The position numbers were made by a program, and so were the translations under genes. Source: Cytophaga aurantiaca DSM 3654 (GTDB taxonomy: Bacteria; Bacteroidota; Bacteroidia; Cytophagales; Cytophagaceae). From it: a stretch of DNA of 64,000 nt. The notes below the pieces were generated by a model, which was not told the origin of the DNA, made no database searches, and saw only the letters and a list, made by a program, of their open reading frames with translations. The stretch covers positions 1-64,000 of the forward strand of contig NZ_KB903621.1 in assembly GCF_000379725.1 (NCBI RefSeq). The letters are read 5' to 3'. This document shows, in pieces, positions 12,075-53,009 of this stretch (its first letter is position 1; every line of letters starts with the position of its first letter).

Positions 12075-12191
12075 CTGGTATTTGTCTCAACTTAATGATG
12101 AGGCCAACAAAGGTCAAAAGAAATAGTAGAAAAAACAACCCGCATGCACTTCATTTTCACAAATTAGTTTATGGAATGTCAAGTATTTATC

Positions 12192-12199
12192 TATTTTTG
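12192..12199 (+). promoter_or_regulatory. Putative Bacteroidota -7 promoter element for ndk
   Basis: TATTTTTG matches the TAnnTTTG consensus of the Bacteroidota primary sigma factor and lies 25 bp before the ndk ATG. The -33 region has only a weak T-rich match (GTTT near 12167), so the call rests on the -7 element and its position. Confidence 0.5.
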
Positions 12200-12223
12200 T
12201 TGAATAAATAATGAAGTACGACT

Positions 12224-12643
12224 ATGGTAGGAAACAGAACATTTTCAATGATTAAACCCGATGCCGTGAGAGACGGTCAGAGTGGTAGCATTTTAAAAAT
12301 GATAGAGGCGGCAGGTTTTAGAATCGTGGCTATTAAATTAACGTACTTAAGTTCTGAGCGGGCAGGAGAATTTTATGGTGTGCATGCAGACAAACCATTT
12401 TATCCAAGTTTGAAAGCGATCATGTCTGAAAGCCCGATCATGGCACTCATTTTAGAAAAAGAAAATGCAGTTGAAGATTTCAGAAAATTAATCGGCTCTA
12501 CAAATCCGGCTAATGCAGCAGAAGGAACAATACGTAAACAGTTTGCTAAATCGCTTGAACGAAATGCTGTGCATGGTTCTGATTCAGATGAAAATGCGGC
12601 AATTGAAGGAAGCTTTTTCTTCAGCAACCTTGAAAAATATTAA
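12224..12643 (+). CDS. ndk: Nucleoside diphosphate kinase
   Basis: This 139-residue enzyme transfers the gamma phosphate between nucleoside triphosphates and diphosphates. It begins with the typical [11 protein letters not shown] strand. The catalytic loop is NAVHGSDS with the phosphorylated His at about residue 117, followed by AAIEGSFFF. Length and motifs match the family without gaps. It is a single gene divergent from the DHH-FKBP operon and ends in a hairpin shared with the convergent amidase gene. Confidence 0.97.
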
Positions 12644-12651
12644 AGTTGACA

Positions 12652-12684
12652 ATTCGTCGGACCACAAAAAGTGGTCTGACGAAT
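12652..12684. terminator. Hairpin between convergent ndk and YiiX-like gene
   Basis: A 14-bp stem (one G-T pair) with an AAAAA loop, built on ATTCGTC...GACGAAT. It begins 9 bp after the ndk stop and faces the convergent amidase gene. No long T-tract follows. A related hairpin recurs at 13475-13508. Confidence 0.6.
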
Positions 12685-12711
12685 GCTCTTAATAAATTAA
12701 CTTTTTACTTT

Positions 12712-13371
12712 TTATTTTTTCTCGACTTCATACAGAAGTGCAGAGTTTGACAAATCTGAGGGTGCCACAACGTCTTCTTCCAATGGTGGATTGTTTCCAT
12801 AACGCTGTTTCATTATTGCTTTAACTTCCGGTGAAGTCAAATCGAAGTCTTTCATTTTTCTTAAGGGACACAACTCGACTCCATAACTTCTTTTATATAT
12901 TTTCCATACCAGTTCCGAACAATACAATTGCTCGTCGCTCCAATTAAAATATAGATCGTAATGTGTACCCAGCATTTTTTTAGCCTGAGCCTGGGCTACA
13001 GGAATTTCAGCATTTTCTATTTCAGCAGTTCTGTTTTTAAGACGCATTACCGTATAGTGGCCGCCCGTTCCGTGGGAAATCCACGTGGCAAGTTCGGTGA
13101 TACGCACAGGTTCAACAGCTTCTAATACATAAGCTTTTTCGCCTTTAAATGTGATCATACCTACATGACTATACTCGGAATGAGTTGCAAGTTTTACGGC
13201 TTTGCATTGATTCGATTGTGAGGATTGAAAAATAATGTCTCCTTCCATATATGTTGTTGTTACAACTTTAGACTTAACAGCATTGTCAATTTTATCTTTT
13301 ATAGTATAAAATGAAAAAAGCGTGAAGCTTCCTGCTAAAAATAAAATGGAGATAAAAACATTTTTTTTCAT
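12712..13371 (-). CDS. YiiX/YebB-like permuted papain-like amidase/hydrolase, exported
   Basis: I start this 219-residue protein at the ATG at 13371. It gives a clean signal peptide (MKKNVFISILFLAGSFTLF), while the frame open further upstream would run through a terminator-like hairpin. The fold signature is the permuted NlpC/P60 group: GDIIFQSS, SEYSHVGMITF with the active-site His, and DEQLYCSELVWKIYKR with the nucleophile Cys. Members of this family act on peptide or lipid amide bonds in the envelope, and the substrate is unknown. It converges with ndk and lies downstream of scpA but is separated from it by a terminator. Confidence 0.82.
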   Translation of the reverse strand: MKKNVFISILFLAGSFTLFSFYTIKDKIDNAVKSKVVTTTYMEGDIIFQSSQSNQCKAVKLATHSEYSHVGMITFKGEKAYVLEAVEPVRITELATWISHGTGGHYTVMRLKNRTAEIENAEIPVAQAQAKKMLGTHYDLYFNWSDEQLYCSELVWKIYKRSYGVELCPLRKMKDFDLTSPEVKAIMKQRYGNNPPLEEDVVAPSDLSNSALLYEVEKK

Positions 13372-38875: not shown

Positions 38876-39141
38876 TTTCATTCATGTCATATAGATGATT
38901 GCGCAGTATAGCAGGAGATCCGGATGTAGTGGATCTATTCTAATTTATTCAAAGTTGATATTCATATTCTCACAATAAGTAAAATCTGATTTCAGCAACT
39001 AGGAATCAGGGTATCGAAGCAGGATAATTCTATTGCCACAATTTTCATTTTTCAATCCTCCTTTTAACCACAAAATTCACCCCTTCATAGAATCTAAATA
39101 TGGTATTATTGAAATAATAAATTAAACAAAAACAATATATC
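38876..39141. other. Spacer upstream of the GH26 gene
   Basis: Between the lyase terminator and the GH26 start I see no gene. A leader of about 100 bp, AT-rich at its end, precedes the ATG. The terminator upstream means the GH26 gene needs its own promoter, which I could not place. Confidence 0.4.
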
Positions 39142-41562
39142 ATGACAGCTACACATTTTATCCGGATGTTGGTATTCGTTATAGTTTTACTATCAACAAG
39201 TACCATCCATGCTCAGCGCCTGGTGAATTCAAGCGCTACGCAAGAGACTAAAAATTTAAAGGCCTATATGGATGATATCTATGGTCAAAAGATCATCTCG
39301 GGCCAGTACTGGGATACATATGCTACCTGGATCAAGAATCTTACAGGCAAAACTCCGGCAATTCTGGGTCTGGATTTTATGGATTATATGCCCAGAAGGA
39401 AACAGGAAGGTGCCAAACCAACCGATACACAGAAGGCCATTGACTGGGTGAATAACAAAAAAGGTATTGTTACCTTCAGCTGGCACTGGGATGCGCCTGC
39501 AGATATCTATGATGTGAATTATCGCCAGGAATGTGCAGGAACAACCGGCGGAGATGCACGTTGGTATAAGGCTTTTTATAGTTGTGCCGTTTGGTTTGAT
39601 CTTCAGAATGCACTTGCTAATCCAGGCAGTACAAATTACAATCTTCTGATCCGTGATATCGATCTGGTTGCAGCAGAACTAAAAATATTGCAGGATAACA
39701 ACGTGCCGGTATTATGGCGCCCGTTGCATGAGTCATCCGGACAATGGTTCTGGTGGGGAGCGAAAGGTGCAGGACCGTGCAAGGAACTTTGGAAACTGAT
39801 GTATGACCGTTTGGTGAATCATCATAAACTTAATAATCTGATCTGGGTATGGAATTGTTATGGCTACGAACATGGAAATCCGACAGACTGGTTTCCAGGA
39901 TATGACTACGTTGATATCATTGCGTATGATTATCCAAGATCGACGAGTTGGAACGAGTACAATACGATCCACGGAAATAAAGGAAAAGAATTTGCTTTGG
40001 CTGAAGTAGGTGGTCTGCCTAATCCGAATGATTTAGCAGCACAAGGATGGTCGTATTTTGTTACCTGGGGAGATTTTATTCAGAATAATAATTCCGAAGC
40101 CTATGTGAAGCAGGTTTACACGGACCCGAGAGTAATAACATTGGAATCGTTGCCCGATCTGAAAAATTATTTGCCCGTGGGTGTAAACATTGCGCTCCAT
40201 AAACCTGTAAGCGTATCTTCGACAGAAGCAGGTTTAGGTAATGTAGCAGGGAATGCCGTTGATGGCAATGCAGCTACCCGATGGTCAAGTGTGTATGCAG
40301 ATCCGCAATGGATACAAGTTGATTTGCAGGGTACATACCAACTCAGTGAAATTCGCTTAAAGTGGGAAAATGCATTTGCTTCTGCATATACCATTGAAAC
40401 TTCAGCTGACGGAGTAACGTGGAATACTGTTAAGCAAATAACCAATGGGGACGGAGGATTAGATATCATTGGCGGTTTAACCACGACTGGCAGATATATC
40501 AGGGTGACCGGAACCACAAGGGCTACACAATATGGTTATTCGTTATACGAAATTGAAGTGTATGGAAATGAATCATGCAGTGCAACAATCACTGCTCAAT
40601 CCACTTCCTTTTGCCAGGGTGGTTCTGTAACATTAACAGCAAACACAGGTTCAAGTTATATCTGGAAGAACGGTATAACAACTGTCGGCACTTCAGCAAC
40701 ATTCAATGCAACAGCAGCAGGTTCATACACGGTTGAAGTAACAAATGCAGCAGGCTGCAAAGCAACGTCAAGCACGACAACGGTTACCGTAAATGCAGCT
40801 CAAACAGCGAACATTACAGCTAACGGTGCTACAACATTCTGTCAAGGCGGATCGGTAACTCTAGCTGCAACTACTGGTTCAAGTTATATCTGGAAGAACG
40901 GAACAACAACCGTTGGAACTTCTGCAACATACAATGCAACAACAGCAGGTTCATACACAGTGGAAGTAACCAATGCGAACGGCTGCAAGGCAACATCAGC
41001 TGCGACAACGGTAAATGTTGAGTCGGCTTCTGTCTGGTATCAGGATCTTGATAACGATGGAATCGGTGATGCAGTTGCAAGTGTGCAAGCATGTACAAAA
41101 CCTACAGGCTATGTGGCGACAAGTGGCGATACCTGTCCGCTTGATGCATTGAAACGAGAACCGGGCAACTGCGGCTGCGGCAATACAGAACAAAGCTGTG
41201 TGGACTGTGCAGGAATTGCTAACGGAACGGCAGCACTCGATGTGTGTGACATCTGTTCCGGTGGAACAACAGGCAGAACTCCGGTAACAGATGTGAATCT
41301 ATGCAACGTGTCCACAGGAATTAATCAGCTGCAGACGATGGAAAAAATCCGTGTAGCTCCTAACCCATTTTCGGATCGTCTGTCTGTATCAATCGAAAAC
41401 ATCCTGAGCTACCAGCTGATGGACATGAACGGACGAATTGTACTGGAAGAACAAACATCTGCTTCCAGCATCAACACGAGTGGCTTAGCAAACGGTCTCT
41501 ACATTCTACGCATTGTAACAACTACAGGAATTGAGTTTGTAAAAGTGGAAAAACAAGACTGA
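39142..41562 (+). CDS. Secreted GH26 endo-beta-mannanase with CBM-like and Ig-like modules and T9SS sorting domain
   Basis: This 806-residue protein has a signal peptide ending TIHAQ. The GH26 barrel covers about residues 30-340, with the acid/base Glu197 in WRPLHESSGQWFWWG and the nucleophile Glu288 in FALAEVGG. GH26 enzymes mostly cleave beta-1,4-mannan. An F5/8 type C domain (about 348-475), two 76-residue Ig-like units (481-630), the Cys-rich module (about 632-725) and a T9SS sorting domain (VAPNPFSDRL...GLYILRI) follow. The accessory modules match those of the GH5-like enzyme at the start of the locus. It ends at a hairpin shared with the convergent defence operon. Confidence 0.92.
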   Translation: MTATHFIRMLVFVIVLLSTSTIHAQRLVNSSATQETKNLKAYMDDIYGQKIISGQYWDTYATWIKNLTGKTPAILGLDFMDYMPRRKQEGAKPTDTQKAIDWVNNKKGIVTFSWHWDAPADIYDVNYRQECAGTTGGDARWYKAFYSCAVWFDLQNALANPGSTNYNLLIRDIDLVAAELKILQDNNVPVLWRPLHESSGQWFWWGAKGAGPCKELWKLMYDRLVNHHKLNNLIWVWNCYGYEHGNPTDWFPGYDYVDIIAYDYPRSTSWNEYNTIHGNKGKEFALAEVGGLPNPNDLAAQGWSYFVTWGDFIQNNNSEAYVKQVYTDPRVITLESLPDLKNYLPVGVNIALHKPVSVSSTEAGLGNVAGNAVDGNAATRWSSVYADPQWIQVDLQGTYQLSEIRLKWENAFASAYTIETSADGVTWNTVKQITNGDGGLDIIGGLTTTGRYIRVTGTTRATQYGYSLYEIEVYGNESCSATITAQSTSFCQGGSVTLTANTGSSYIWKNGITTVGTSATFNATAAGSYTVEVTNAAGCKATSSTTTVTVNAAQTANITANGATTFCQGGSVTLAATTGSSYIWKNGTTTVGTSATYNATTAGSYTVEVTNANGCKATSAATTVNVESASVWYQDLDNDGIGDAVASVQACTKPTGYVATSGDTCPLDALKREPGNCGCGNTEQSCVDCAGIANGTAALDVCDICSGGTTGRTPVTDVNLCNVSTGINQLQTMEKIRVAPNPFSDRLSVSIENILSYQLMDMNGRIVLEEQTSASSINTSGLANGLYILRIVTTTGIEFVKVEKQD
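40582..41022 (+). repeat. Two Ig-like coding repeats in the GH26 gene
   Basis: Units start at 40582 (225 bp) and 40807. They belong to the same family as those in the three preceding genes. Confidence 0.9.
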
Positions 41563-41583
41563 GTTTTGTTTTTTTGGTAAATA

Positions 41584-41610
41584 AAAAAGGGGAGCAATGC
41601 TCCCCTTTTT
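41584..41610. terminator. Bidirectional terminator between GH26 gene and hsdM
   Basis: A 12-bp stem, AAAAAGGGGAGC paired with GCTCCCCTTTTT, with a tight loop. T-tracts arise on both strands, and it lies between convergent genes. Confidence 0.85.
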
Positions 41611-41651
41611 ATTTATGTAAAGACATTTTATGAGGCGAATAAAGTAATCCA

Positions 41652-43298
41652 CTAAATCGGAGGCAAACCCAATTCTTTTAGAAATTCATTGTGTTTGTCT
41701 GTATTCGTTTTAATTGCCTTATTAATTTCGACCAGCTTTTTATTTACTTCTTTCAGATCAATTTTAACTTCATCCAACGACGTACTAACATATCTTGAAA
41801 TATTTAAGTTGTAGCCATTCTTTTCAATTTCTTCTATTGAAACTCTGCGTGAGTAGCGCTCTTGTTCTGTGCGGTACTGATATGTTTCAATGATTTTTTG
41901 AATGTCGTTGGGTGCGCCATTTTCCCCTTCTCTTAATGTATTTTGTCTTCCGGTTTTTTGATAATGCTCGCTGGCGTTGATGAACAAGACATCATCTTCT
42001 TTTTTACATTTTTTCAATACAAGGATGCTAACAGGTATACCTGTAGAATAAAATAAATTGGAAGGTAAGCCAATAACGGTATCAATGTGATTGTCTTTTA
42101 GCAATTTGGTACGTATGCGTTCTTCGGCACCGCCGCGGAATAATACACCGTGTGGCAGTATAATTGCCATGGTGCCTTCTTTACCTAAGAAGTGAAAACC
42201 GTGCAATAAGAATGCAAAGTCTGCTGCAGACTTTGGCGCTAAGCCATAACTTTTAAAACGAAAATCATCTGCTAAAACATCATTAGGTTCCCAGCGTAAA
42301 CTAAACGGTGGATTGGCTACAATAGCATCAAATTCGATTTTCTTAGAAGGATTCATTTCATTCATCAGAGGCCATTGATTCTCTAAGGTATCTCCGTGAA
42401 AGATTTCAAACTCTGTATCCTTCATGCCATGCAACAGCATGTTCATACGGGCAAGGTTATAGGTAGTAATGTTTTTTTCCTGACCGAATATTTTGCCCAC
42501 ACTACCGCCATTATCCTTAATTCGTTTCCGCACATTCAGCAACAATGAGCCTGAACCACAAGCAAAGTCAAGCACCTTTGCCAGCTTCTTTCTTTTGCCA
42601 GCTGTAGGGTCCTGACTGTCTAATGTAACAATCTCCGAAAGAATGGTAGAAATTTGCTGTGGTGTATAAAACTCTCCGGCTTTCTTGCCAGAACCTGCAG
42701 CAAACTGGCCTATTAAATATTCGTACGCATCTCCTAGTGTATCTGAGCCGGATGAAAAATCCGCAATACCTTCAGCAATTTTTTGAATAATGATGCAGAG
42801 CTTTTTATTGCGTTCTGTTGACGTTTTACCAAGCTTTTCTGAATTCAAATTTATTTCTGAAAACAAACCTTGAAAGGAATTATCAAACGATTCGTTTTCA
42901 ATATATCGAAATCCTTTTTCCAGCGTTTGTAACAATTCATCCTTTTGCGTACGCGCCAATTCTGTAATGTTGCTCCATAAGTGTTTGGGCTTTATTACAT
43001 AATGCACTTTTTTACGCATTTGAGCTTCAAAGTCATCAATCTCTTTGGGATTCTCTGTATACCAAATCTCTAAAGGAGTATTCACTTTCAGTTTGGACAT
43101 AACATCCTGCGGGGTATTGTCAGGATAATCTTTGCCCAACTCTTTTTTGGCTGCTTCTTCGTAATTGTACGACAAGTAACGCAAGAAGAGAAACGATAGC
43201 ATATAATCCCTGAAGTCATCTGCATTCATCGCGCCGCGCAAATTATCAGCAATCCTCCAAAGTGTATTACCTAACTGTTGTTGTTCTTTTTGTGTCAT
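41652..43298 (-). CDS. hsdM: Type I restriction-modification system, DNA methyltransferase subunit HsdM
   Basis: This 548-residue N6-adenine methyltransferase subunit has an N-terminal helical HsdM domain (NTLWRIADNLRGAMNADDF). The SAM-binding motif DFACGSGSLLLNV is at about residues 240-255, and the catalytic motif IVANPPFSL around residue 330. The C-terminus has the long helix that contacts HsdS. It is the last gene of the defence operon, 12 bp after the anticodon-nuclease-like gene. Placing hsdM last, after hsdR and hsdS, differs from the usual M-S-R order. Confidence 0.95.
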   Translation of the reverse strand: MTQKEQQQLGNTLWRIADNLRGAMNADDFRDYMLSFLFLRYLSYNYEEAAKKELGKDYPDNTPQDVMSKLKVNTPLEIWYTENPKEIDDFEAQMRKKVHYVIKPKHLWSNITELARTQKDELLQTLEKGFRYIENESFDNSFQGLFSEINLNSEKLGKTSTERNKKLCIIIQKIAEGIADFSSGSDTLGDAYEYLIGQFAAGSGKKAGEFYTPQQISTILSEIVTLDSQDPTAGKRKKLAKVLDFACGSGSLLLNVRKRIKDNGGSVGKIFGQEKNITTYNLARMNMLLHGMKDTEFEIFHGDTLENQWPLMNEMNPSKKIEFDAIVANPPFSLRWEPNDVLADDFRFKSYGLAPKSAADFAFLLHGFHFLGKEGTMAIILPHGVLFRGGAEERIRTKLLKDNHIDTVIGLPSNLFYSTGIPVSILVLKKCKKEDDVLFINASEHYQKTGRQNTLREGENGAPNDIQKIIETYQYRTEQERYSRRVSIEEIEKNGYNLNISRYVSTSLDEVKIDLKEVNKKLVEINKAIKTNTDKHNEFLKELGLPPI

Positions 43299-43310
43299 TT
43301 CTTATTATTT

Positions 43311-44432
43311 TTAAGCAAATATTTCAGGTAATTGAAACTCATGTTTACCTAAAAATGCATTCAATATCCTTTTAAATAATTCTTTATTATCCTCATTCAT
43401 TTCAACAGGTTCATATACCGAATATTTTCCGTGGCTAAGCAAATTTAAAGCACGTGAAAAAAGGATTTCATCTTCTACATCGTAAATGCATTTAGAAAAT
43501 TCATCATGACCAAAGAAGGTTGAAGTTTTTTCCAAGACACTACGTAGCATATTGAAATGATATGTGTTTATCTTTTCTGAATCTGCTACTCTTTTTAATT
43601 CAGTCAATAAAGCAACATGATGAAAAAATGGGGTGTCATTTGTAGCTTGTAGCAAGTAACCTTCTGCACCATTTTTATGCAGAAAGTGACTTTTATGTTT
43701 AAGATTTCTTAATTCATTATACATCACATTAAAGAATAAGGCATGATGTGAAGAAATAACAACCTTTAATTTTTCTTTTCCTCTTTTAAGTAATTGAGCT
43801 AAATCACTAGCAACTGCAATTGCATTATTGTCGTCCAAAGAAGAAATTGGATCATCTATGTAAATATAATTTATGCGCTCATAAGATTTATCGCCATCAA
43901 TAACTAACTCAATAAGAGCAAGAAAAACACACCAAATAAAAATATTTTCTTCTCCTCTTGAAACCTTGATATTGGATTGAATAATATATTCAGGTTCTTC
44001 TGATTCAGGTCTAAATTTGGGGTTCTTTACTTGTTTCTTAAAAGCGATTGTTCCTTTTATAAAATCAAGGTCAAAATTAAAATCGGTATATCGTTCTAAA
44101 TAGCTGAAAATCTTTTCATCTAAAGCCAGTTCCTTAAAACCATCAAAAAAGGTAGAATCTTTATTAATGATTAAATACCTATCAATATCATTTACAAGGT
44201 CGTTGTTCCAGTGGAAGAGGTCTTCTGTATATGCATTATAATAGAGTGTATCGGACTTAGGGTCTTTTTTTTGTTTTTTGCTTACATCTTTAAATTCCAT
44301 GGAAAGGCGTGTTTTCCCCGTTCCATTATAAGCATAAAGTAGTACAAAATTATGGTCGTTTAAATCATCCCTCAATCTAACAGCAACATTTTTTAATGTT
44401 TTATACTTATATAATTTTGTTTTGCCGCTCAT
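43311..44432 (-). CDS. PrrC-like anticodon nuclease (ABC-type ATPase with HEPN-like C-terminus)
   Basis: This 373-residue protein has an ABC/SMC-type ATPase half: P-loop YNGTGKT at residues 35-41, signature-like VSRGEENIF at about 158-166, Walker B plus D-loop YIYIDDPISSLD at 189-200, and an H-loop ISSHH at 226-230. The C-terminal part carries Arg297-x3-Glu301 and His334. PrrC of E. coli, 396 residues long, uses an Arg-x3-Glu...His triad with nearly the same spacing (32 residues from Glu to His, 33 here). PrrC is a tRNA-Lys anticodon nuclease kept silent by a type I restriction enzyme. The gene sits between hsdS and hsdM, 3 bp and 12 bp from them. The nuclease role is inferred from motifs and context, and the tRNA target is unknown. 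It could alternatively be an RloA-type ATPase without nuclease activity. Confidence 0.72.
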   Translation of the reverse strand: MSGKTKLYKYKTLKNVAVRLRDDLNDHNFVLLYAYNGTGKTRLSMEFKDVSKKQKKDPKSDTLYYNAYTEDLFHWNNDLVNDIDRYLIINKDSTFFDGFKELALDEKIFSYLERYTDFNFDLDFIKGTIAFKKQVKNPKFRPESEEPEYIIQSNIKVSRGEENIFIWCVFLALIELVIDGDKSYERINYIYIDDPISSLDDNNAIAVASDLAQLLKRGKEKLKVVISSHHALFFNVMYNELRNLKHKSHFLHKNGAEGYLLQATNDTPFFHHVALLTELKRVADSEKINTYHFNMLRSVLEKTSTFFGHDEFSKCIYDVEDEILFSRALNLLSHGKYSVYEPVEMNEDNKELFKRILNAFLGKHEFQLPEIFA

Positions 44433-44435
44433 ATT

Positions 44436-45644
44436 CTAATCGATTACTTTTGGAAATAAAGCCTGCATCAGACCTTTTTTGTGTAACTTTAAAGCTTCGA
44501 GTTTGTCTGTTTGTTCAATAATTAATTCATCTAATGATGAAAGGCATTCGGCTATTTTTACTTGTTCATTTTTTTTTGGTAAAATTATTGGCATATCTGA
44601 AATCATTGACATCCTAACCGAATCGACTGAATTCTTAGCACTCATTCGCATAACTCTTTCATTGAAATATTGAGAGAAATACATATAGACAAATTTACCA
44701 TATGTTTTTTCTGAAAAATTATAAATACTATATACTCTCTGATGAAAGTCAAACTTCCCAACTATATAATGAAAGTTTTTACCTACACCTACACCATCAC
44801 CAGAAGTCAATATCGCCTCACCATCGTATGAATAAGAATTAATTCGTTCAACAGTTTGCGATCTTACAAAAAATGGATAGAGACCATTATCTACTTTGTT
44901 CTGAGTATCCTTATTACCTGTAGTTACTTTAGCAATTTCTCCTATTGTCTTCGTTTCCCACTCCCTATCCTTCGCAAACTCTTTAAACCGCCACTTAGGA
45001 ACTGTTTCACCTTCTTGCGGAAAGAGATTTTGCATCAACCCTTTTTTATGGTCTTTTAAGCTTTCTAATTTTTGACTGTGTACTGAGATGACTTCGTCTA
45101 ACCATGAAAGACAGGAAGCGATTTTTTGCTGTTCTTTTTTGTTTTTAGGTAAGTAAACTGGCAATAGTTTTATGATCTCAGCATTTAAATTTTTTACTGC
45201 TGCGCCAGCTGCATTGGTTTGAAAATAAGATTGGCTTGATTCTGAAGAAATGAAGTAGTACAAATAATCTTCAAAAGTTTTTTTTGAAATTTTTCTTATT
45301 GCAATCCAGCCATCATGAATACATGTTTTGATTTTTAGAATATAAGGTCTGCCAAAACTCATAGAGTTTGAAAGAATTAAATCTCCTGGATTGACTTCCC
45401 TTGTACTACTTAAGGCTTCAACAATAACTTTTTCTTTGGTGCTTATAATGTATTTTGATTCAGAAGACACATCAGCAATTTTCAACCAATTCAAGCCATC
45501 AATATCTGTTGTTTGATAATCCTGAATCGGTCGTGGAGATCCCCCTCGAACGATTTCTGAAATATCTCCAAGCACCTCTTTCTCCCATTCCCCATCCTTC
45601 TTAAATTCTGGAAAACGCAATTCAGGAATATGTTTATTCTTCAT
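44436..45644 (-). CDS. hsdS: Type I restriction-modification system, specificity subunit HsdS
   Basis: This 402-residue protein has two target-recognition domains (about residues 10-170 and 215-370), each opening with LRFPEFKKDGEWEKEVLGDI or WRFKEFAKDREWETKTIGEI. Each is followed by a spacer helix with the repeated LESLKDHKKGLMQNLFP and LEALKLHKKGLMQALFP. The repeated half-subunits mean it recognises a bipartite site. The two recognition domains differ in sequence, so the halves of the site should differ. Its ATG overlaps the end of the DUF1016 gene by 11 bp. Confidence 0.94.
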   Translation of the reverse strand: MKNKHIPELRFPEFKKDGEWEKEVLGDISEIVRGGSPRPIQDYQTTDIDGLNWLKIADVSSESKYIISTKEKVIVEALSSTREVNPGDLILSNSMSFGRPYILKIKTCIHDGWIAIRKISKKTFEDYLYYFISSESSQSYFQTNAAGAAVKNLNAEIIKLLPVYLPKNKKEQQKIASCLSWLDEVISVHSQKLESLKDHKKGLMQNLFPQEGETVPKWRFKEFAKDREWETKTIGEIAKVTTGNKDTQNKVDNGLYPFFVRSQTVERINSYSYDGEAILTSGDGVGVGKNFHYIVGKFDFHQRVYSIYNFSEKTYGKFVYMYFSQYFNERVMRMSAKNSVDSVRMSMISDMPIILPKKNEQVKIAECLSSLDELIIEQTDKLEALKLHKKGLMQALFPKVID

Positions 45645-46704
45645 CGTTGCCCAGTGTTTGATTCCCTAAACTGTTTTCATTTTCCGAAGCCTGTATCTCT
45701 GTCAAAAGCAAGGTTTGTAATTCGTCTTTTGGCAGCAACAATTGATATTCGGCAACTCCTATGGGTTTATTTATATCCTGCAGAGCAATTTCGACATCCA
45801 AATGATCCTTGTCCGCACAGAGAATAATGCCAATGGAGGGGTTTTCATTCTCACCTTTTTCCAAGCGGTCTAACAGCGAAAGATAGAGATTCATTTTACC
45901 AACGTATTCGGCTTTAAAGCTACCTATTTTCAACTCAATAGCTACCAACGATTGTAATCCGCGGTGGAAAAAAAGCATATCCACGAAGTATTCTTTTTGA
46001 TTGTACTCCAAGCGATGTTGATTGCCTATAAATGTAAAGCCTTTGCCTAATTCCAGTATAAACGCTTTAATTTTTGTAATCAATCTATTTTCCAACTCCA
46101 GTTCCCTGAGAGGTTCCGTAATGCCCAGAAACCCCAGGTTGTAGCTGCTTTTAAACACTTCATTGGCATAATCGGCATGCGCCTCAGGCAGTAAAGCATC
46201 AAAGTTGTGTGATTTAATACTCTTTTGTGCTTGTTGGTAGCTATCCAACTTAATAGCATTCAGTAACAAATCTCTGGACCAGCCTTTGCTCAGTGTTTCG
46301 TTGGCGTAAAATTCTACTTCCTTATCTTCTTTTATTTTATTTATCAGCAATACATTATGTCCCCAAGGCAAAACTGCGACAGCCTGTCGCAGTTTTGCCT
46401 CTGCTTGAAAATAGCGTTCATAAAAGCGTTTCATATCCCACAAATTACGTGGAGATAGTCCCATATCCGGAAACTCTTTTTTTAAGTCTATAGACAATTC
46501 TTTTACAACCCCACTGCCGTACCCTTCTACCAATTGTTTTTCAAAAAGTAGTTTACCCAGATTCCAATAGATAGAATTGGCAGTACTGTTTACTTGTTTG
46601 GCAATAGCAAGACGTGCCGAACGAATTTCAACAAGGGCTTGCTGCAACATTTCAGCATATTCCTGCTTATTTATAGCATTCAATTTATTTATCTCTTTAG
46701 GCAT
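45634..46704 (-). CDS. DUF1016/YhcG-type PDDEXK nuclease family protein
   Basis: This 356-residue protein has an N-terminal DUF1016_N region (residues about 10-150; NSIYWNLGKLLFEKQ, LSPRNLWDMKRFYERY). A C-terminal PDDEXK-type nuclease domain at about 190-330 shows YFVDMLFFHRGLQSLVAIELKIG, where the Asp and the Glu-x-Lys are the expected metal-site residues. YhcG-like proteins are often embedded in type I restriction operons with unknown function. Here the gene overlaps hsdS by 11 bp and follows hsdR by 53 bp, so it is translated with the system. Confidence 0.88.
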   Translation of the reverse strand: MPKEINKLNAINKQEYAEMLQQALVEIRSARLAIAKQVNSTANSIYWNLGKLLFEKQLVEGYGSGVVKELSIDLKKEFPDMGLSPRNLWDMKRFYERYFQAEAKLRQAVAVLPWGHNVLLINKIKEDKEVEFYANETLSKGWSRDLLLNAIKLDSYQQAQKSIKSHNFDALLPEAHADYANEVFKSSYNLGFLGITEPLRELELENRLITKIKAFILELGKGFTFIGNQHRLEYNQKEYFVDMLFFHRGLQSLVAIELKIGSFKAEYVGKMNLYLSLLDRLEKGENENPSIGIILCADKDHLDVEIALQDINKPIGVAEYQLLLPKDELQTLLLTEIQASENENSLGNQTLGNDEE

Positions 46705-46738
46705 TTAGTTGTGGAGTTATATGATTTTAGAGGCCAAA

Positions 46739-46756
46739 GTGGTCAAATCTGACCAC
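46739..46756 (-). other. Small hairpin between hsdR and the DUF1016 gene
   Basis: GTGGTCA-AATC-TGACCAC, a 7-bp perfect stem just after the hsdR stop. It has no T-tract, so it is more likely an mRNA processing or attenuation site than a full terminator. Low certainty. Confidence 0.35.
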
Positions 46757-46757
46757 C

Positions 46758-49700
46758 TTACTCATAAGCTGCCAAGCCACTAATCTCGCGTCCTTCGGCT
46801 ATTTTTTTCAATTGAGGTACTAAGTCCTCCATCAATGCCAGTTCTTTTAACCTGCGTTCTTTCCAGCTCAGGCCCAGTGGTTCCAACAAGTCGGTCAATT
46901 TTTCTCCGTCAAAAATCATGCGACTCATGATGTTGTTTACAAAAGTTTTTAAATCTGCCGTTTGCAAGCCATGTTTGTGCGCAATGTCACTCAGTTCTTT
47001 TTCGTTCTTTTCAACTTTGAACTTTTCAAATAGAGATTTGAGCTCCTCTGCACTGTAACTTCTGTTCCAATCCAAACCATTGATAAAGTCTGTTAAATCA
47101 TCCTGATCGTCCATCAGATTCGCATTGGAACGCAGCAAGCTGATCACCTGTTCCTTGGTCATTTTTTGCTTCGCAGGTTTCTTCTGCGTACTGTCAGCAA
47201 TCAAGGCCATGATGTAATCGTAATCAATCACAGCAGAAGCAAAAAGCACAAATTCAAAATCCAGTTGCTGAATTTCCGGTGGCGCATCGTCTCCTTCTTT
47301 TTGCTGAATCTCTTTTAATTGTTTGGCCGTTTCAAGGTACGAACTTCTGAACGACTGCAAGGTTTCTTTCGGCAATATGGCTTCAATACTTGCTTGCTGA
47401 ACTTCATCCAAATCCGTGTATTGATCCAACTGTGTTTTTAAACGCTGTACTTCTTTAAAGTTCTTTACAAATGCAATGCGCGCTGCATCGCCTTTTAAGT
47501 TATAGACTTCCTGTGGTTCGCTTGTGAGATTATGCTCCTGCATAAAATTCCCTAGCGCTTCCACCGCTTTTTTGTACTGATCAATCACTACAGGTGCAGG
47601 ATCAATCAACCAGATTTCTTTTGCACTTCCATTGTATTCGCCAGAGAAGAGCGCAATGGCTTGGTTTACGGCCTCCTGCTGCGAACGAAAATCCAATATG
47701 TTTCCATAAGGTTTTGTATCATTCAGCACACGATTGGTACGCGAAAATGCCTGTATCAATCCGTGGTACTTCAGATTCTTGTCAACGTATAAGGTGTTGA
47801 GGTATTTCGAATCAAAACCTGTAAGCAACATATCCACAACAATGGTAATATCAATTTTATTTTTGTGCGAATAATCTTTATTAGAATACTTCTGATCTTT
47901 GATGCGCTTCTGCACATCCTGATAATACAAATCAAATTCATTAATGCTGTGATTGCTGCCATACTGTGTATTGTAATCGGCAATAATTTCCATCAAGGCT
48001 TTTTTCTTTTCTTCCGGATTTGTCTGGTTGTCTAATTTTTCCTGCTGCAAATCTTCCTGTACCTGACGGATATCTGCTGCATTTTTTTGACTTTGCTGAT
48101 CACCTTCTTTTGCTATTAACTGTGCGGGTGGAGAGAACACACAAGCAATATTAAGCGGAATATAGGTAACGTCTTCTGCCTGCTTTTTCTTTTGAAGTGT
48201 TTTAAAAAGCTGATAAAATTCAATGGCATTGTTAATCGAAGCAGTTGCCATAACTGCATTGAAACGCATAGAACTCGTAGCAGCTTGATGCTTATCAAGT
48301 ATAGCTTCTACAACAGCCTTTTGTGCAATGGCTTCGCCCGGCTTGGGATTTTGATTGCCTTTACCTTTGAAGTAATCGACATGAAAACGCAATACATTTC
48401 TATCGTCTATGGCATGCGTAATGGTATACGCGTGTAATTGCTTTTCAAAGATTGATTCTGTGGTTTTATAAGAACCATGTTCCCCTTCTCGAATATTATA
48501 GGTTGCATTATCATCAAAAATAGGTGTTCCTGTAAATCCAAACAATTGTGCGTTCGGGAAAAACTCTTTAATGGCTTTGTGATTATCACCAAACTGCGAA
48601 CGGTGACATTCGTCAAATATGAAAACAATACGCTTTTTACTCAAAGATTCTAAGCGCTCTTTATAGTTTTTCTTATTTGTTCCATCCAATGCCAAACCTA
48701 ATTTTTGAATGGTGGTTACAATAACCTTGTCGGCATAATCGGTAGATAATAAACGACGTACCAATGTTTCGGTATTTGTATTTTCTTCTACACTGCCTTC
48801 CTGAAATTTATTAAACTCCTCGCGCGTTTGCCTGTCCAGATCTTTTCGATCTACAACAAAAAGACATTTTTCTATATCCGGATTATCTTTTAAAAGCGTA
48901 GAAGCTTTAAACGAAGTCAATGTTTTACCGCTCCCTGTTGTGTGCCAGATATACCCATTGCCTCTGTTTTGATGAATGCAATCGACAATAGCCTTTACAG
49001 CATATATCTGATATGGACGCATCACCAACAGCTTTTGTTCGCTTTCTACCAACACCATGTATTTACTGATCATTTCGCCTAGTGTACACTTAGTTAGAAA
49101 CTTTTCAGTAAATGGTTCTATGTGTGTTATTTTTTTATTACTCTCATCTGCCAATTGATAAACAGGCAAAAACTGTTCGTCTGCATTAAAAGCAAAATGC
49201 TGATTTTTATTATTAGCAAAATAGTATGTGTTTGTTTTGTTGCTGACAATAAACAACTGCATAAAACACATCAACGAATTGTTGTACCCATTACCTGGTT
49301 CGTTTTTATATTCCACAATTTGCTGCATAGCTTTGCGTGGAGATATGTCGAGTTTTTTCAATTCAATCTGAACAACAGGTAAGCCATTAATTAGTATAAT
49401 AATATCGTAACGGTGATTGCTGTTTTCAGTATTGATGCGTAGTTGGCTAATAACTTCAAAATCATTTTTGCACCAGTCTTTGATATTTACCAGCGTATAA
49501 TGTAAAGGTGTACCATCTTCCCGTTGAAAGTAGTTTCGTTCGCGCAAAAGTTTGGAAGCAGCAAAAACATCGGGTTTGATAATCTCTTCCCGCAAACGTA
49601 AAAATTCGCTGTCCGTTAGGCGAACACGATTCAATGCTTCAAATTTGGTTTTAAAATTCTGTTCAAGCGCTTTTCTATCGGTAATATCAGATCGATAAAT

Positions 49701-49760
49701 ATATTTCAGCTCCGTTAGTTGCCTGATAAGACTTTCTTCTATTTGATTTTCTTTACTCAT
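46758..49760 (-). CDS. hsdR: Type I restriction-modification system, restriction subunit HsdR
   Basis: This 1000-residue translocating endonuclease has the N-terminal nuclease motif Asp119...QIELKK (Gln131, Glu133, Lys135). The Walker A motif is TTGSGKT at 275-281 and the DEAD-type box is FDECHRSQFG at 382-391. FGFTGTPIF and VDMLLTGFDSKYLNTLYVDK follow, with a C-terminal helical region that joins the HsdM-HsdS core. Length matches full-size type I R subunits and no break is seen. It is the first restriction gene of the operon and lies 54 bp after the abortive-infection gene. Confidence 0.95.
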   Translation of the reverse strand: MSKENQIEESLIRQLTELKYIYRSDITDRKALEQNFKTKFEALNRVRLTDSEFLRLREEIIKPDVFAASKLLRERNYFQREDGTPLHYTLVNIKDWCKNDFEVISQLRINTENSNHRYDIIILINGLPVVQIELKKLDISPRKAMQQIVEYKNEPGNGYNNSLMCFMQLFIVSNKTNTYYFANNKNQHFAFNADEQFLPVYQLADESNKKITHIEPFTEKFLTKCTLGEMISKYMVLVESEQKLLVMRPYQIYAVKAIVDCIHQNRGNGYIWHTTGSGKTLTSFKASTLLKDNPDIEKCLFVVDRKDLDRQTREEFNKFQEGSVEENTNTETLVRRLLSTDYADKVIVTTIQKLGLALDGTNKKNYKERLESLSKKRIVFIFDECHRSQFGDNHKAIKEFFPNAQLFGFTGTPIFDDNATYNIREGEHGSYKTTESIFEKQLHAYTITHAIDDRNVLRFHVDYFKGKGNQNPKPGEAIAQKAVVEAILDKHQAATSSMRFNAVMATASINNAIEFYQLFKTLQKKKQAEDVTYIPLNIACVFSPPAQLIAKEGDQQSQKNAADIRQVQEDLQQEKLDNQTNPEEKKKALMEIIADYNTQYGSNHSINEFDLYYQDVQKRIKDQKYSNKDYSHKNKIDITIVVDMLLTGFDSKYLNTLYVDKNLKYHGLIQAFSRTNRVLNDTKPYGNILDFRSQQEAVNQAIALFSGEYNGSAKEIWLIDPAPVVIDQYKKAVEALGNFMQEHNLTSEPQEVYNLKGDAARIAFVKNFKEVQRLKTQLDQYTDLDEVQQASIEAILPKETLQSFRSSYLETAKQLKEIQQKEGDDAPPEIQQLDFEFVLFASAVIDYDYIMALIADSTQKKPAKQKMTKEQVISLLRSNANLMDDQDDLTDFINGLDWNRSYSAEELKSLFEKFKVEKNEKELSDIAHKHGLQTADLKTFVNNIMSRMIFDGEKLTDLLEPLGLSWKERRLKELALMEDLVPQLKKIAEGREISGLAAYE

Positions 49761-49814
49761 TCAAAATTTTATTCAAATTTACTTTTAAGAATTGAGGATC
49801 TAAGTATTTGTATG

Positions 49815-50768
49815 TTAATGTCCATAAGCACCCATTGCATATTCCTCCAAATGTTTTTGATTTACTATTAATGCATTGTCAATATTTTTGAATAGTGCAT
49901 ATTTTTCAATTAACGGCTTGAACTTCTCATTTCCGTTTGCATGAAGACAATTGTAAAAAATTATTATTTGTTCAAAGCTAGAAAGTTGTGCTCTTGCAAT
50001 TGAAATATATTGCTTCTTATTTTGAATTTCTGAACTATCAATAAATTTAATAATATGATAGATTGTTCTAAAATAATGACTCATATCCGTTTGACTCTCT
50101 GTATAAAATTTCTCATAAGCTTCAACTATTTGACTAACTGATGCAATACTTAAATCTTTCATCATAGATTCTTCACCGTATATTATTGAATTCAGATGCA
50201 TAGCAAGTCGCTTGTAAAAAACAACAAAACAATCCCGTCCAGATGCTGTTACAACTAATGTCTTTCTATTTCTTATATCAATAGAATTAACAATAGAATT
50301 AAAAAGGCTCAATAGCTGAAAAAAAGTATTTTCAAATTTCTGTTGTCTCAAAGTTTCATTTTGCTCCATCATTTCCTTTTTCTGCCCATATAATTCAAGT
50401 CGAGTATATTTAACTTCGAGTTGACTATACATAATCTCCAGTTGTTGGTTTAGTAGTTGTTGCTTTTGACCAAGGAATGCTACATAAATAAAAAAAAGTC
50501 CTGCCAACGACCAAATTGAGGCTACAGTTCCAGCCATAAAATCACCTAATAAATTAAGGCCAAATCCAGACTCAGTATTCTTACATAAATAAAAAATTGT
50601 CGATGCAAAAGCAACAACTGCTCCAGACCAAACAAATCTCCAAGCCCAAGTTGTGTAATTGTTGATTTGATCAACAAGTTGATCCAACTCCAAGTTAATT
50701 TCTGCCTGTCGAATCTCAATACGATTCGATGTATTTTCTATTTCTATTTCTAAATTTTGGTCAGCCAT
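49815..50768 (-). CDS. Putative phage abortive infection protein, PutAbiC-like membrane protein
   Basis: This 317-residue protein has an N-terminal helix, two membrane segments at about residues 43-63 and 77-101, a coiled coil at about 102-143, and the motif FENTFFQLLSLFNSIVNSI at 145-163. This layout and motif are typical of the PutAbiC family (AbiC-related abortive infection). A Tyr/Phe-rich helical region follows (FVVFYKRLAMHLNSII, YFRTIYHIIKFID). Membrane-anchored abortive infection proteins block phage multiplication by killing or stalling the host cell; the trigger is unknown. It is 54 bp upstream of hsdR on the same strand, which suggests a shared transcript. Confidence 0.8.
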   Translation of the reverse strand: MADQNLEIEIENTSNRIEIRQAEINLELDQLVDQINNYTTWAWRFVWSGAVVAFASTIFYLCKNTESGFGLNLLGDFMAGTVASIWSLAGLFFIYVAFLGQKQQLLNQQLEIMYSQLEVKYTRLELYGQKKEMMEQNETLRQQKFENTFFQLLSLFNSIVNSIDIRNRKTLVVTASGRDCFVVFYKRLAMHLNSIIYGEESMMKDLSIASVSQIVEAYEKFYTESQTDMSHYFRTIYHIIKFIDSSEIQNKKQYISIARAQLSSFEQIIIFYNCLHANGNEKFKPLIEKYALFKNIDNALIVNQKHLEEYAMGAYGH

Positions 50769-50976
50769 TTTTCATTTTATAAAATTATAGCAACTTTTTC
50801 ATTATAGAACCATTCTGTTTAAATACATCATATTTGAGTCTGTTTTTGAAAAAAAATTATTTGTAAAGACATATTTTGTCAAATACAAAATTTTTAATAA
50901 TAGTACACTTTATTTTTTGGTTTTCAAACTTTCCATAGTTCTTATGCCTTAAGAATATAAATTCGCTGGAAACAAA

Positions 50977-51004
50977 AAAGGCCGCACTCTATAGCGCGGC
51001 CTTT
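50977..51004 (-). terminator. Terminator of the acyl-CoA dehydrogenase gene
   Basis: A 9-bp GC-rich stem, AAAGGCCGC paired with GCGGCCTTT, with a 10-nt loop. It is followed on the minus strand by a T-tract and lies 22 bp after the stop. Confidence 0.8.
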
Positions 51005-51026
51005 CCTATATCATAAGTAAGAAGAG

Positions 51027-52820
51027 TTAGAAACAATATTGATTTGCTTCGATCAATTGTGCTGCAATTCTTCTTCTTGCGTCTTTTGTATTTAACGGTG
51101 CTACTTTTGTAAAACGTTTCAAGCCCATCAACATCATTCGTTGCATGTCGCCATCAGACATAGAGTTGATCGCGTTTTTACCGGCAACATTGATGCGGTC
51201 TGCAGCGTCAAAGATATTTACCTTCGTCATATCGATCTGACCTTTTACTGCATCTTCGCCTTTAATAGAAATTAATTTCTCAGTACGCATCAATGTAGAT
51301 TCAGCTACATAAATATCGATTGCAATATCTGCCAGGTTCATTAAGATCTCCTGCTCAGTAGCAAGCTTATCCATGTATTTCTGCGCAGCTGCACCAGCAA
51401 GCATCAACAAGGCTTTCTTCATGTTTTTGATCGCTTTCTTTTCATCTGCAAACAGACCTTCGTCTTCTGCACCGAAATCAGGGATCGCCATCAACTCTTT
51501 CTGAACAGCCATTGCAGGGCCCATCAGATCAAGTTCACCTTTCATTGCTTTCTTCAGGAACATATCCATCGTAAGCATACGGTTGATCTCGTTTGTACCT
51601 TCGAAAATACGGTTGATACGTGAATCTCTGTATGAACGATCCATCGGATAATCCGCAGAGAAACCATAACCGCCTAAGATCTGCACACCTTCATCACTCA
51701 CGTAATCGAGTGTTTCAGAACCTGCAACTTTTAACATCGCACATTCGATGGCATACTCCTGCGCCGCAGCTAACAATGCTTCTTCGTATGTTTTGCCTTG
51801 TTTTACCAATTCTTCCTCTGCATCCTGAATACCTTGTCCGGCACGGTACATCGCAGATTGAACGGTATATATCCGGATTGCCTGTTCTGCTAATTTATAT
51901 TGAATCGCACCAAAGTTTGCGATTGGTTGTTTGAATTGAATACGTTCTTTTGCGTATTGAATGGAAAGCGTGCTTACACGAGTTGAGCCACCCAATGCAG
52001 CTGCAGCCAATTTAATACGACCAATATTTAAAATGTTAAATGCGATCAAGTGGCCTTTGCCAATTTCACCCAACACATTTTCTTTCGGCACTTTGCAGTC
52101 GTTAAAGAAAACCTGACGGGTAGAAGAACCTTTGATACCCATTTTGTGCTCTTCGTTTCCTAACGAAACTCCTTCACCTTTTTCAACAATAAAACCTGTG
52201 AACTTGTCGCCATCTATCTGAGCAAAGACAATAAACGTATCTGCAAAACCAGCGTTTGTGATCCACATTTTTTGTCCGTTCAGAATATAGTGACTGCCAT
52301 CCGCAGAAAGTACTGCTTTTGTTTTAGCAGCCAAGGCATCCGAACCGGAGCCTGGTTCTGTTAAGCAATAACTTGCTTTCCATTGGCCGCTGGCAAGCTT
52401 CGGTAAATATTTTTTCTTTTGTTCGTCTGTACCAAAATATAAGATCGGTAAGGTACCAATACCTGTGTGGGCAGCAAGTGCAACTGCAAACGAGTGACCT
52501 GCACCAACGATCTCCGTCATTAAAAGCGATGTATTAAAATCTTTTCCGAAGCCTTCGTATTGCTCGGGAATGGATGTTGCAAGCAAACCAAGTTCACCTG
52601 CTTTTTCAAGAAGCTTTTCCATCAAGCCCGGCTCCTGTGCATCAATACGATCCAGGATCGGATGTACTTCTGTAGCTAAAAAATCTCTGGCCATATCAGC
52701 CATCATTCGTTGCTCTTCATCAAATTGTTCCGGGATGAAAATGCTGGATGCTTCCTGTTCGCGAATGATGTACTCGCCTCCTTTAAAGCGCTTGTCGGTG
52801 TTGGTGGTTGATGCTGACAT
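51027..52820 (-). CDS. Acyl-CoA dehydrogenase family protein (long, FadE-type)
   Basis: This 597-residue flavoenzyme oxidises acyl-CoA to trans-2-enoyl-CoA in beta-oxidation. It carries CLTEPGSGSDAL, WITNAGFAD, the C-terminal helical-domain motif QILGGYGFSADYPMDRSYRD and RINRIFEGTNEINRM with the usual catalytic Glu. It is about 200 residues longer than short and medium-chain enzymes. The C-terminal extension resembles VLCAD/ACAD9-type proteins common in Bacteroidota, so long-chain substrates are likely. Heptad repeats lie between it and the thiolase gene upstream, so co-transcription is plausible. Confidence 0.93.
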   Translation of the reverse strand: MSASTTNTDKRFKGGEYIIREQEASSIFIPEQFDEEQRMMADMARDFLATEVHPILDRIDAQEPGLMEKLLEKAGELGLLATSIPEQYEGFGKDFNTSLLMTEIVGAGHSFAVALAAHTGIGTLPILYFGTDEQKKKYLPKLASGQWKASYCLTEPGSGSDALAAKTKAVLSADGSHYILNGQKMWITNAGFADTFIVFAQIDGDKFTGFIVEKGEGVSLGNEEHKMGIKGSSTRQVFFNDCKVPKENVLGEIGKGHLIAFNILNIGRIKLAAAALGGSTRVSTLSIQYAKERIQFKQPIANFGAIQYKLAEQAIRIYTVQSAMYRAGQGIQDAEEELVKQGKTYEEALLAAAQEYAIECAMLKVAGSETLDYVSDEGVQILGGYGFSADYPMDRSYRDSRINRIFEGTNEINRMLTMDMFLKKAMKGELDLMGPAMAVQKELMAIPDFGAEDEGLFADEKKAIKNMKKALLMLAGAAAQKYMDKLATEQEILMNLADIAIDIYVAESTLMRTEKLISIKGEDAVKGQIDMTKVNIFDAADRINVAGKNAINSMSDGDMQRMMLMGLKRFTKVAPLNTKDARRRIAAQLIEANQYCF

Positions 52821-52866
52821 AATAGTTGCTATGGTTTGTTAGTAATGATTTGTTCTCTATTTAACT

Positions 52867-52899
52867 TGGTTACTAGTTTCTAGGTACTAGTTGCTAGAC
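52867..52899 (+). repeat. 33-bp heptad (TAG) element, copy 5
   Basis: Four heptamers (the first is TGGTTAC) followed by TAGAC. It lies 46 bp upstream of the acyl-CoA dehydrogenase start and faces copies 6 and 7 across a 77-bp spacer. Confidence 0.72.
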
Positions 52900-52976
52900 T
52901 AGATACAAGATTGTAGTATGAATGTGAGAAATCAGTAATTAAGATAATTTTAAACTATATACTTTATTTTCTTTTT

Positions 52977-53009
52977 GTCTAGTAACTAGAAACTGGCAAC
53001 TAGTAGCTA
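52977..53009 (-). repeat. 33-bp heptad (TAG) element, copy 6
   Basis: On the minus strand, four heptamers (TAGCTAC first, one CAG variant) then TAGAC. A 6-bp gap separates it from copy 7. Confidence 0.75.

Follow-up and report, generated by a model that had tools for sequence, protein, structure and literature searches.

The 373-codon open reading frame on the minus strand (43311..44432) of the window, as we call the whole 64,000-nucleotide stretch of Cytophaga aurantiaca DSM 3654 DNA analyzed here, encodes a protein that we take, with a probability of about 0.88, to be a clade-B1 anticodon nuclease of the PrrC family guarding a type I restriction-modification enzyme. The protein belongs to the PrrC family, joins an ABC/Rad50-like NTPase to a C-terminal HEPN-like anticodon-nuclease domain (as judged by PADLOC, Pfam and AF2), retains the conserved catalytic residues and is encoded by an intact reading frame inside a restriction operon. 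Judging from trees and DNA comparisons, clade B1 shares the hsdS-hsdM slot of one restriction backbone with a second and thinly sampled clade, B2 (12 rows), and the two have been exchanged in that slot repeatedly.

The initial annotation had placed the frame in a type I restriction operon, and the size, strand and neighbors that it gave are all correct. The genes hsdR, yhcG, hsdS, prrC and hsdM run together on the minus strand, with hsdS and hsdM adjoining prrC: the end of hsdS is 3 bases from prrC, and prrC is 12 bases from the start of hsdM. The hsdR gene (46758..49760) has an EcoR124-type C-terminus (EcoR124_C, 2.1e-63), hsdS (44436..45644) contains two recognition domains (Methylase_S, 1.5e-32, in two stretches), and hsdM (41652..43298) matches N6_Mtase (5.8e-103) and HsdM_N. 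Between hsdR and hsdS, at what is called the rlo position, lies the gene of a YhcG/DUF1016 PDDEXK nuclease (45634..46704; YhcG_C 2e-55, DUF1016_N 7.1e-39; PADLOC PDC-S02). An AbiP/AbiC-like gene (49815..50768, minus strand; Pfam putAbiC 1.3e-25, PADLOC AbiP 1.4e-18) ends 54 bases upstream of hsdR and possibly belongs to the same operon; a gene matching it was found in the window alone among the 158 sources described below. An Rfam scan of 39000-53000 gave no match, and a promoter scan of the operon was uninformative (36 sites versus 34.2 expected). Similarity between the window and the remaining two genomes of its genus (L245 and L246) ends at the stop codon of an acyl-CoA dehydrogenase gene (51027/51028), beyond which each of the three genus genomes carries different genes. 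Hence, the operon lies in a variable chromosomal site.

The protein had been proposed to be a PrrC-like anticodon nuclease, to be checked by a profile search. The PADLOC PrrC profile PDLC02360 matches residues 9-367 with E = 1.9e-134 and 446 bits, which bears the proposal out; Pfam AAA_13 matches at 9.3e-16, and an NCBIfam search returned nothing above the cut-offs. The family search thus returned PrrC instead of the RloA-like family, the assignment that the initial annotation had named as speaking against a nuclease, and an RloA-like ATPase lacking the nuclease was set aside on this match, the comparison being by the PrrC profile alone. The identity to E. coli PrrC is 33%, which we counted against the guard reading; the 396-residue E. 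coli reference was taken as EcoPrrC by its length, residues and setting and stands in for the type sequence.

Relatives were drawn from 158 sources, namely the window, 6 plasmid loci, 23 genome loci, 5 further plasmid loci, 80 genome contigs and 43 viral contigs, and were found by two peptide patterns of the ATPase part, a whole-family profile or a whole-protein search. PrrC is present in 148 of these sources, the other 10 being viral contigs (L172-L181) that contain short query matches and no PrrC, and 141 distinct relatives remain once 3 short rows and 4 duplicates are set aside. The ABC-type motifs (P-loop, signature, D-loop and H-loop) stand where the initial annotation had put them and are conserved in this set. 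The Walker A or P-loop region occupies residues 34-42 (AYNGTGKTR, with GTGKTR starting at residue 37; 44307..44333), the signature-like SRGEE residues 158-162 (43947..43961), the Walker B and D-loop residues 189-201 (YIYIDDPISSLDD, with DDPISSLDD starting at residue 193; 43830..43868), and the H-loop, or linchpin, is His229 (43746..43748). G39, K40 and T41 of the first, K156, S158 and E161 around the second, D193, D194, P195, S198 and D200 of the third and His229 itself are each found in 141/141 relatives, as are A67, E70, D71, L72, F73, W75 and N77 of a conserved 15-residue block at residues 64-78 (YYNAYTEDLFHWNND; 44199..44243). This block is probably the 15-residue PrrC box described in PMC3014915; the identification is our own and goes by the length of the box, for which that paper gives no letters.

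Further towards the C-terminus, Arg297 (43542..43544), Glu301 (43530..43532) and His334 (43431..43433) align residue for residue with R320, E324 and H356 of the E. coli reference (BLASTP pairing), so that what had been noticed as a resemblance to the catalytic triad is an exact correspondence. The three residues are conserved in 141, 141 and 140 of the 141 relatives, respectively. According to PMC3014915, triad substitutions in E. coli PrrC abolish activity, and substitution of their counterparts in RloC is reported to do likewise (PMC2610378). The R-x3-E...H pattern was rejected as evidence by itself, because shuffling shows it to be within chance: shuffling the last 130 residues of the protein yields R-x3-E-x(28-52)-H in 2171 of 10000 cases, and the pattern is present in 4 of the 30 open reading frames of at least 250 residues in any frame of the window, prrC included. 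It is the PrrC profile match together with the near-total conservation of exactly those columns that lifts the triad beyond chance. Furthermore, this conservation was not selected for, since the contigs were retrieved with peptide patterns that sit in the ATPase part.

Two side observations concern the same domain. The sole PrrC with an Arg in place of the third triad residue comes from a Planctomycetota MAG (L111, 251-1444) and may reflect a decayed copy, a misalignment or a sequencing error. His272 and His292 are invariant (141/141), as strict as the triad.

The AF2 model of the protein (mean pLDDT 85.2, pTM 0.73) places R297 and E301 on one helix (residues 290-306) and H334 right after another (322-333). 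In VIA-align comparisons, residues 8-276 superimpose on Rad50/SMC heads (best 3qku, Z 13.6, rmsd 3.2, 206 aligned residues). The C-terminal domain (residues 271-364; 43341..43622) is all-helical in the AF2 models, and its prediction alone has a pLDDT of 82.3. The first VIA-align rows for it were 7bxo (Z 6.2), 2j9w (6.0), 8xdj (5.9), 8yuf (5.8), 6m6w (5.7) and 5yep (5.6); 7bxo, 8xdj and 8yuf are HEPN toxins. We take 7bxo, 6m6w and 5yep to be HEPN proteins, the other rows being classed by title; HEPN proteins make up 11 of the first 19 rows (Z 4.6-6.2), three of the 11 being one protein, AbiV, and the remaining 8 are ESCRT Vps28, VP30 and HalB. The non-HEPN folds (ESCRT Vps28 and Ebola VP30) score alike with the HEPN rows, a Z below 7 is weak for a helical bundle, and Foldseek gave 0 matches for the domain with E <= 0.001. 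Because of these low scores and the lack of a significant Foldseek match, the comparison agrees with a HEPN domain and does not prove it. The RloA-like assignment that the initial annotation had named as adverse would have come with no HEPN fold; the structural neighbors of the domain are HEPN-like, at modest scores. The R327-x6-H334 stretch fits the HEPN Rx4-6H motif as quoted in PMC3710099, with R327 at least 90% conserved (86 rows, alignment A2). A phmmer search of PDB sequences found no solved PrrC, and a PDB search with the A1 profile gave only two weak rows, the Rad50 heads 5da9 and 5dac, and again no solved PrrC.

PrrC is widespread: the phylum sample has it in 23 of 395 genomes and the family sample in 2 of 19, the genome of the window being included in both, and in neither (0/2) of the other two genomes of the genus. 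It is matched by 113 plasmid records; among genome contigs, 526 stretches encode a relative (tblastn E <= 1e-3), and PrrC is present in 80/80 of the best 80 of them. Among the viral contigs, 33/43 contain a PrrC that has an hsd gene no more than 300 bases away, and a search of 50,697 phage GenBank records gave no match. In each of the 141 relatives, an hsd gene on the strand of prrC lies no more than 300 bases from it. We assigned the relatives to clades A, B1 and B2 by identity to reference rows, and in a quick PrrC tree of 128 rows (less than 90% identical), which has some long branches, each clade forms one side of a branch with an SH-aLRT of 100. In clade A (30 rows), the nearest downstream hsd gene is hsdR in 30/30, with the full M-S-C-R order in 21. 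The recognized genes follow the order hsdS-prrC-hsdM in 88 of the 99 rows of clade B1, which includes the window, and in 12/12 of clade B2; the remainder of B1 comprises 3 rows with YhcG between prrC and hsdM and 8 that are cut or rearranged. Both neighbors lie within 300 bases in 78/99 rows of B1, 10/12 of B2 and, with hsdS and hsdR as the neighbors, 20/30 of A, the other rows having one neighbor missing from the stretch or a gap or other gene between.

Some of these loci deserve a separate mention. YhcG is present in 15 of the 141 PrrC loci, at several positions, and in one of them (G015, L031) yhcG is broken into three open reading frames (11854-12893), with hsdR, hsdS, prrC and hsdM as open frames. 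Eight listed Klebsiella plasmid copies of prrC (H56-H63) match in two pieces and are apparently broken, seven of the eight being annotated as two hypothetical proteins.

By analogy with E. coli PrrC and PrrC170, the protein would be held silent by the HsdR/M/S complex and would be released when a phage product blocks restriction, the release being aided by its own NTPase through GTP hydrolysis and dTTP binding. The metal-independent HEPN-type site R297/E301/H334 would then cut the host tRNA-Lys(UUU) in its anticodon loop, 5' of the wobble base, and translation and the phage burst would stop. We consider tRNA-Lys a likely target on sequence grounds, because Asp266 is present and the loop of the host tRNA-Lys(UUU) equals that of E. 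coli. Asp266 (43635..43637) aligns with Asp287 of E. coli PrrC, which PMC3014915 presents as the likely contact of the modified wobble base. This column contains D in 29 of the 30 rows of clade A, D in 80 and E in 14 of the 99 rows of B1, and K in 6, N in 5 and S in 1 of the 12 rows of B2. However, the alignment is gapped around it, and in 7 of the 12 B2 rows the next column contains D or E. The loss in B2 is therefore tentative, as moving the alignment by one residue could restore the acid.

ARAGORN, applied to 30 of the 35 tRNA loci of the genome, found two identical tRNA-Lys(UUU) genes with the loop CTTTTAA and the stem TAACA/TGTTA, which contains one G-C pair (pairing by eye). The anticodon loop of E. 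coli tRNA-Lys is the same; the E. coli tRNA-Lys sequence was matched in 5375 of 5426 genomes. The host stem differs, and the E. coli anticodon stem-loop pattern has no match in the genome. A stable anticodon stem is inhibitory according to the review PMC3014915, which also describes E. coli PrrC as sensitive to modification of the wobble base, a point that we counted against the guard reading. No RtcB was found in the genome. Since the tRNA-recognition stretch varies among PrrCs (PMC3014915) and the surroundings of Asp287 differ (GDSNKSFSYH in E. coli versus NDTPFFHH in the window), the protein could also be a PrrC-type nuclease whose tRNA target is not tRNA-Lys or whose trigger is not anti-restriction. 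We find this unlikely, as the Asp is kept at the wobble-contact position, the host loop is identical to that of E. coli, and PrrC170, which has the same gene order, is reported to target tRNA-Lys (PMC11555353).

Activity cannot be told from sequence, and a protein with a dead nuclease might serve as an ATPase accessory of the restriction enzyme only. This is very improbable, given that the triad residues are all intact, that the window frame is intact and that the prrC of G015 (L031) is an open frame of 375 residues while its yhcG is broken. An RloC-type nuclease, which would excise the wobble nucleotide with DNA damage as its cue, is scarcely credible: the ABC-type NTPase motifs and the R-x3-E...H anticodon-nuclease domain are common to RloC (PMC2610378) and AAA_13 is matched, but RloC carries a zinc hook in a coiled coil and is seldom encoded in a restriction-modification operon (PMC2610378), whereas the window protein lies inside such an operon, matches the PrrC profile with 446 bits and is hookless, with no CXXC, only two Cys and, in 373 residues with about 115 from Walker A to the signature, no space for a long coiled-coil insert, so that the missing hook and the size rule RloC out.

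As a PrrC-family guard, the window protein is firmly assigned and ordinary in kind; its kind is not new, because PrrC170 and a Hymenobacter plasmid (L006), the latter with exactly hsdR-PDDEXK-hsdS-prrC-hsdM, have matching gene orders. For PrrC170 of Klebsiella quasipneumoniae, PMC11555353 reports the order HsdR, HsdS, PrrC, HsdM, protection against T1 and T7, growth arrest on induction and tRNA-Lys as the target. PrrC170 resembles the window protein in this order and as an ABC-ATPase anticodon nuclease, each being about one third identical to EcoPrrC, but its four-gene set is reported without YhcG or AbiP and its host belongs to another group; its likeness to clade B1 is one of gene order and of a reported 35% identity to EcoPrrC, not of direct sequence comparison. 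In the hsdS-prrC-hsdM locus of a K. quasipneumoniae plasmid (L005), whose PrrC shares 53% identity with the window protein, two other genes separate hsdR from hsdS. The initial annotation erred on gene order in two respects. It held that the order differs from known examples, but R-S-C-M had already been published for PrrC170 (PMC11555353), and it held that the place between hsdS and hsdM mirrors the prr locus, but that of E. coli is M-S-C-R and that of the window R-S-C-M.

The E. coli PrrC/EcoprrI system (prrABCD; PMC3014915, PMC3874165) shares with the window the NTPase motifs, the triad, the acidic residue 287, a prrC directly after hsdS and an EcoR124-type HsdR, in line with the linkage of PrrC to type IC-like operons. 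Its order is hsdM-hsdS-prrC-hsdR, and its HsdR, which carries the EcoR124_C domain too, is 33% identical to that of the window and sits on a separate long branch; the window backbone is a separate lineage. In the type I loci of C. jejuni, rlo genes lie between hsdR and hsdS and mlo genes between hsdS and hsdM (Miller 2005 as cited in PMC5183652). The yhcG of the window is at the rlo position and its prrC at the mlo position; the difference is that the mlo position is occupied by PrrC here and, in other backbone lineages, by divergent PrrC, RhuM, YhcG or unknown genes.

A close HsdM (E <= 1e-150) is encoded by 37 of the 395 phylum genomes, and to survey the slot we read 30 of their loci. PrrC directly precedes hsdM in 12 of the 30, the genome of the window included; in a further locus (L239) PrrC is followed by a partial RhuM. 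Elsewhere the gene upstream of hsdM is RhuM (L220), YhcG (L227), a zeta-toxin/AAA_33-like protein (L229), a PDDEXK_2 transposase-family gene (L224, L232 and L235), a GajB-like or HerA-like gene (L234 and L240) or an unknown protein of 217 residues (L221, 851-1504) or 214 residues (L222, 3138-3782), the last two matching nothing in Pfam (E <= 0.01) or PADLOC (E <= 0.001). In L238, hsdS adjoins hsdM with nothing between, and in L226, L230, L233, L236, L237 and L241 the upstream gene is cut, fragmentary or not identified. Cargo other than PrrC is shown to lie inside the hsdS-hsdM slot only in L221, L222, L227 and L229, where hsdS is just upstream.

Exchange between the clades is seen when PrrC is set against its backbone. 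In an HsdR tree of 108 rows, and in one of 82 rows that omits most of clade A along with 5 long or odd rows, the backbone of clade A is separate and the B2-linked rows are scattered among the B1-linked ones. The starred branches force at least 7 changes between B1 and B2 on the HsdR tree and at least 9 on the HsdM tree (116 rows, with L050 on a long branch). The AU test rejected HsdR trees in which the 9 B2 rows are kept as one group (p-AU 1.5e-31) and likewise those that keep the 69 B1 rows as one (p-AU 7.8e-30); these tests used quick trees under LG+G4, with groups taken from PrrC identity.

DNA comparisons of cross-clade pairs locate the differing part. L138 (B1) and L171 (B2) are 84% identical across hsdR and 85% over a second stretch, which begins in the last bases of prrC and takes in hsdM, and between hsdR and the end of prrC only two short stretches of hsdS match. 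The corresponding values are 79% and 78% for L039 and L053, with one short hsdS stretch, 78% and 75% for the window and L052, also with one, and 78% and 79% for L004 and L048, with three; prrC has no match in any of these three pairs. In contrast, the window and L031, a pair within one clade, are 77% identical from the end of hsdS through prrC and hsdM. Since the cross-clade pairs match outside the hsdS-prrC block and the prrC of the within-clade pair matches, this block is the part that differs, and we infer a single event that carried hsdS and prrC together. Such an exchange of PrrC clades is undescribed among the matches listed for PrrC with hsdS, hsdM or hsdR and for the slot, as far as titles and the openings of abstracts go.

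The stretch from hsdS to the start of hsdM can tentatively be viewed as an exchange cassette, a reading to which we give slightly less than even odds. A single recombination between the conserved hsdR and hsdM could alter the DNA specificity and replace the tRNA-nuclease guard at the same time. B1 and B2, which are about 32% identical and differ in that B1 has the wobble-contacting acid and B2 has K, N or S, would interchange on close backbones and may swap tRNA targets or the tolerance of wobble modification in step with the specificity, with unrelated cargo taking the same slot elsewhere. The single gene of the window is one more member of a known guard system; what deserves to be followed is how the clades replace each other in the hsdS-hsdM slot. 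The pairs L138/L171 and L039/L053 combine close HsdR and HsdM (84-85% and 78-79% identical DNA) with PrrCs of different clades, and matched B1 and B2 operons of this kind could be used to ask which parts of PrrC decide the choice of tRNA and which are needed for its silencing.
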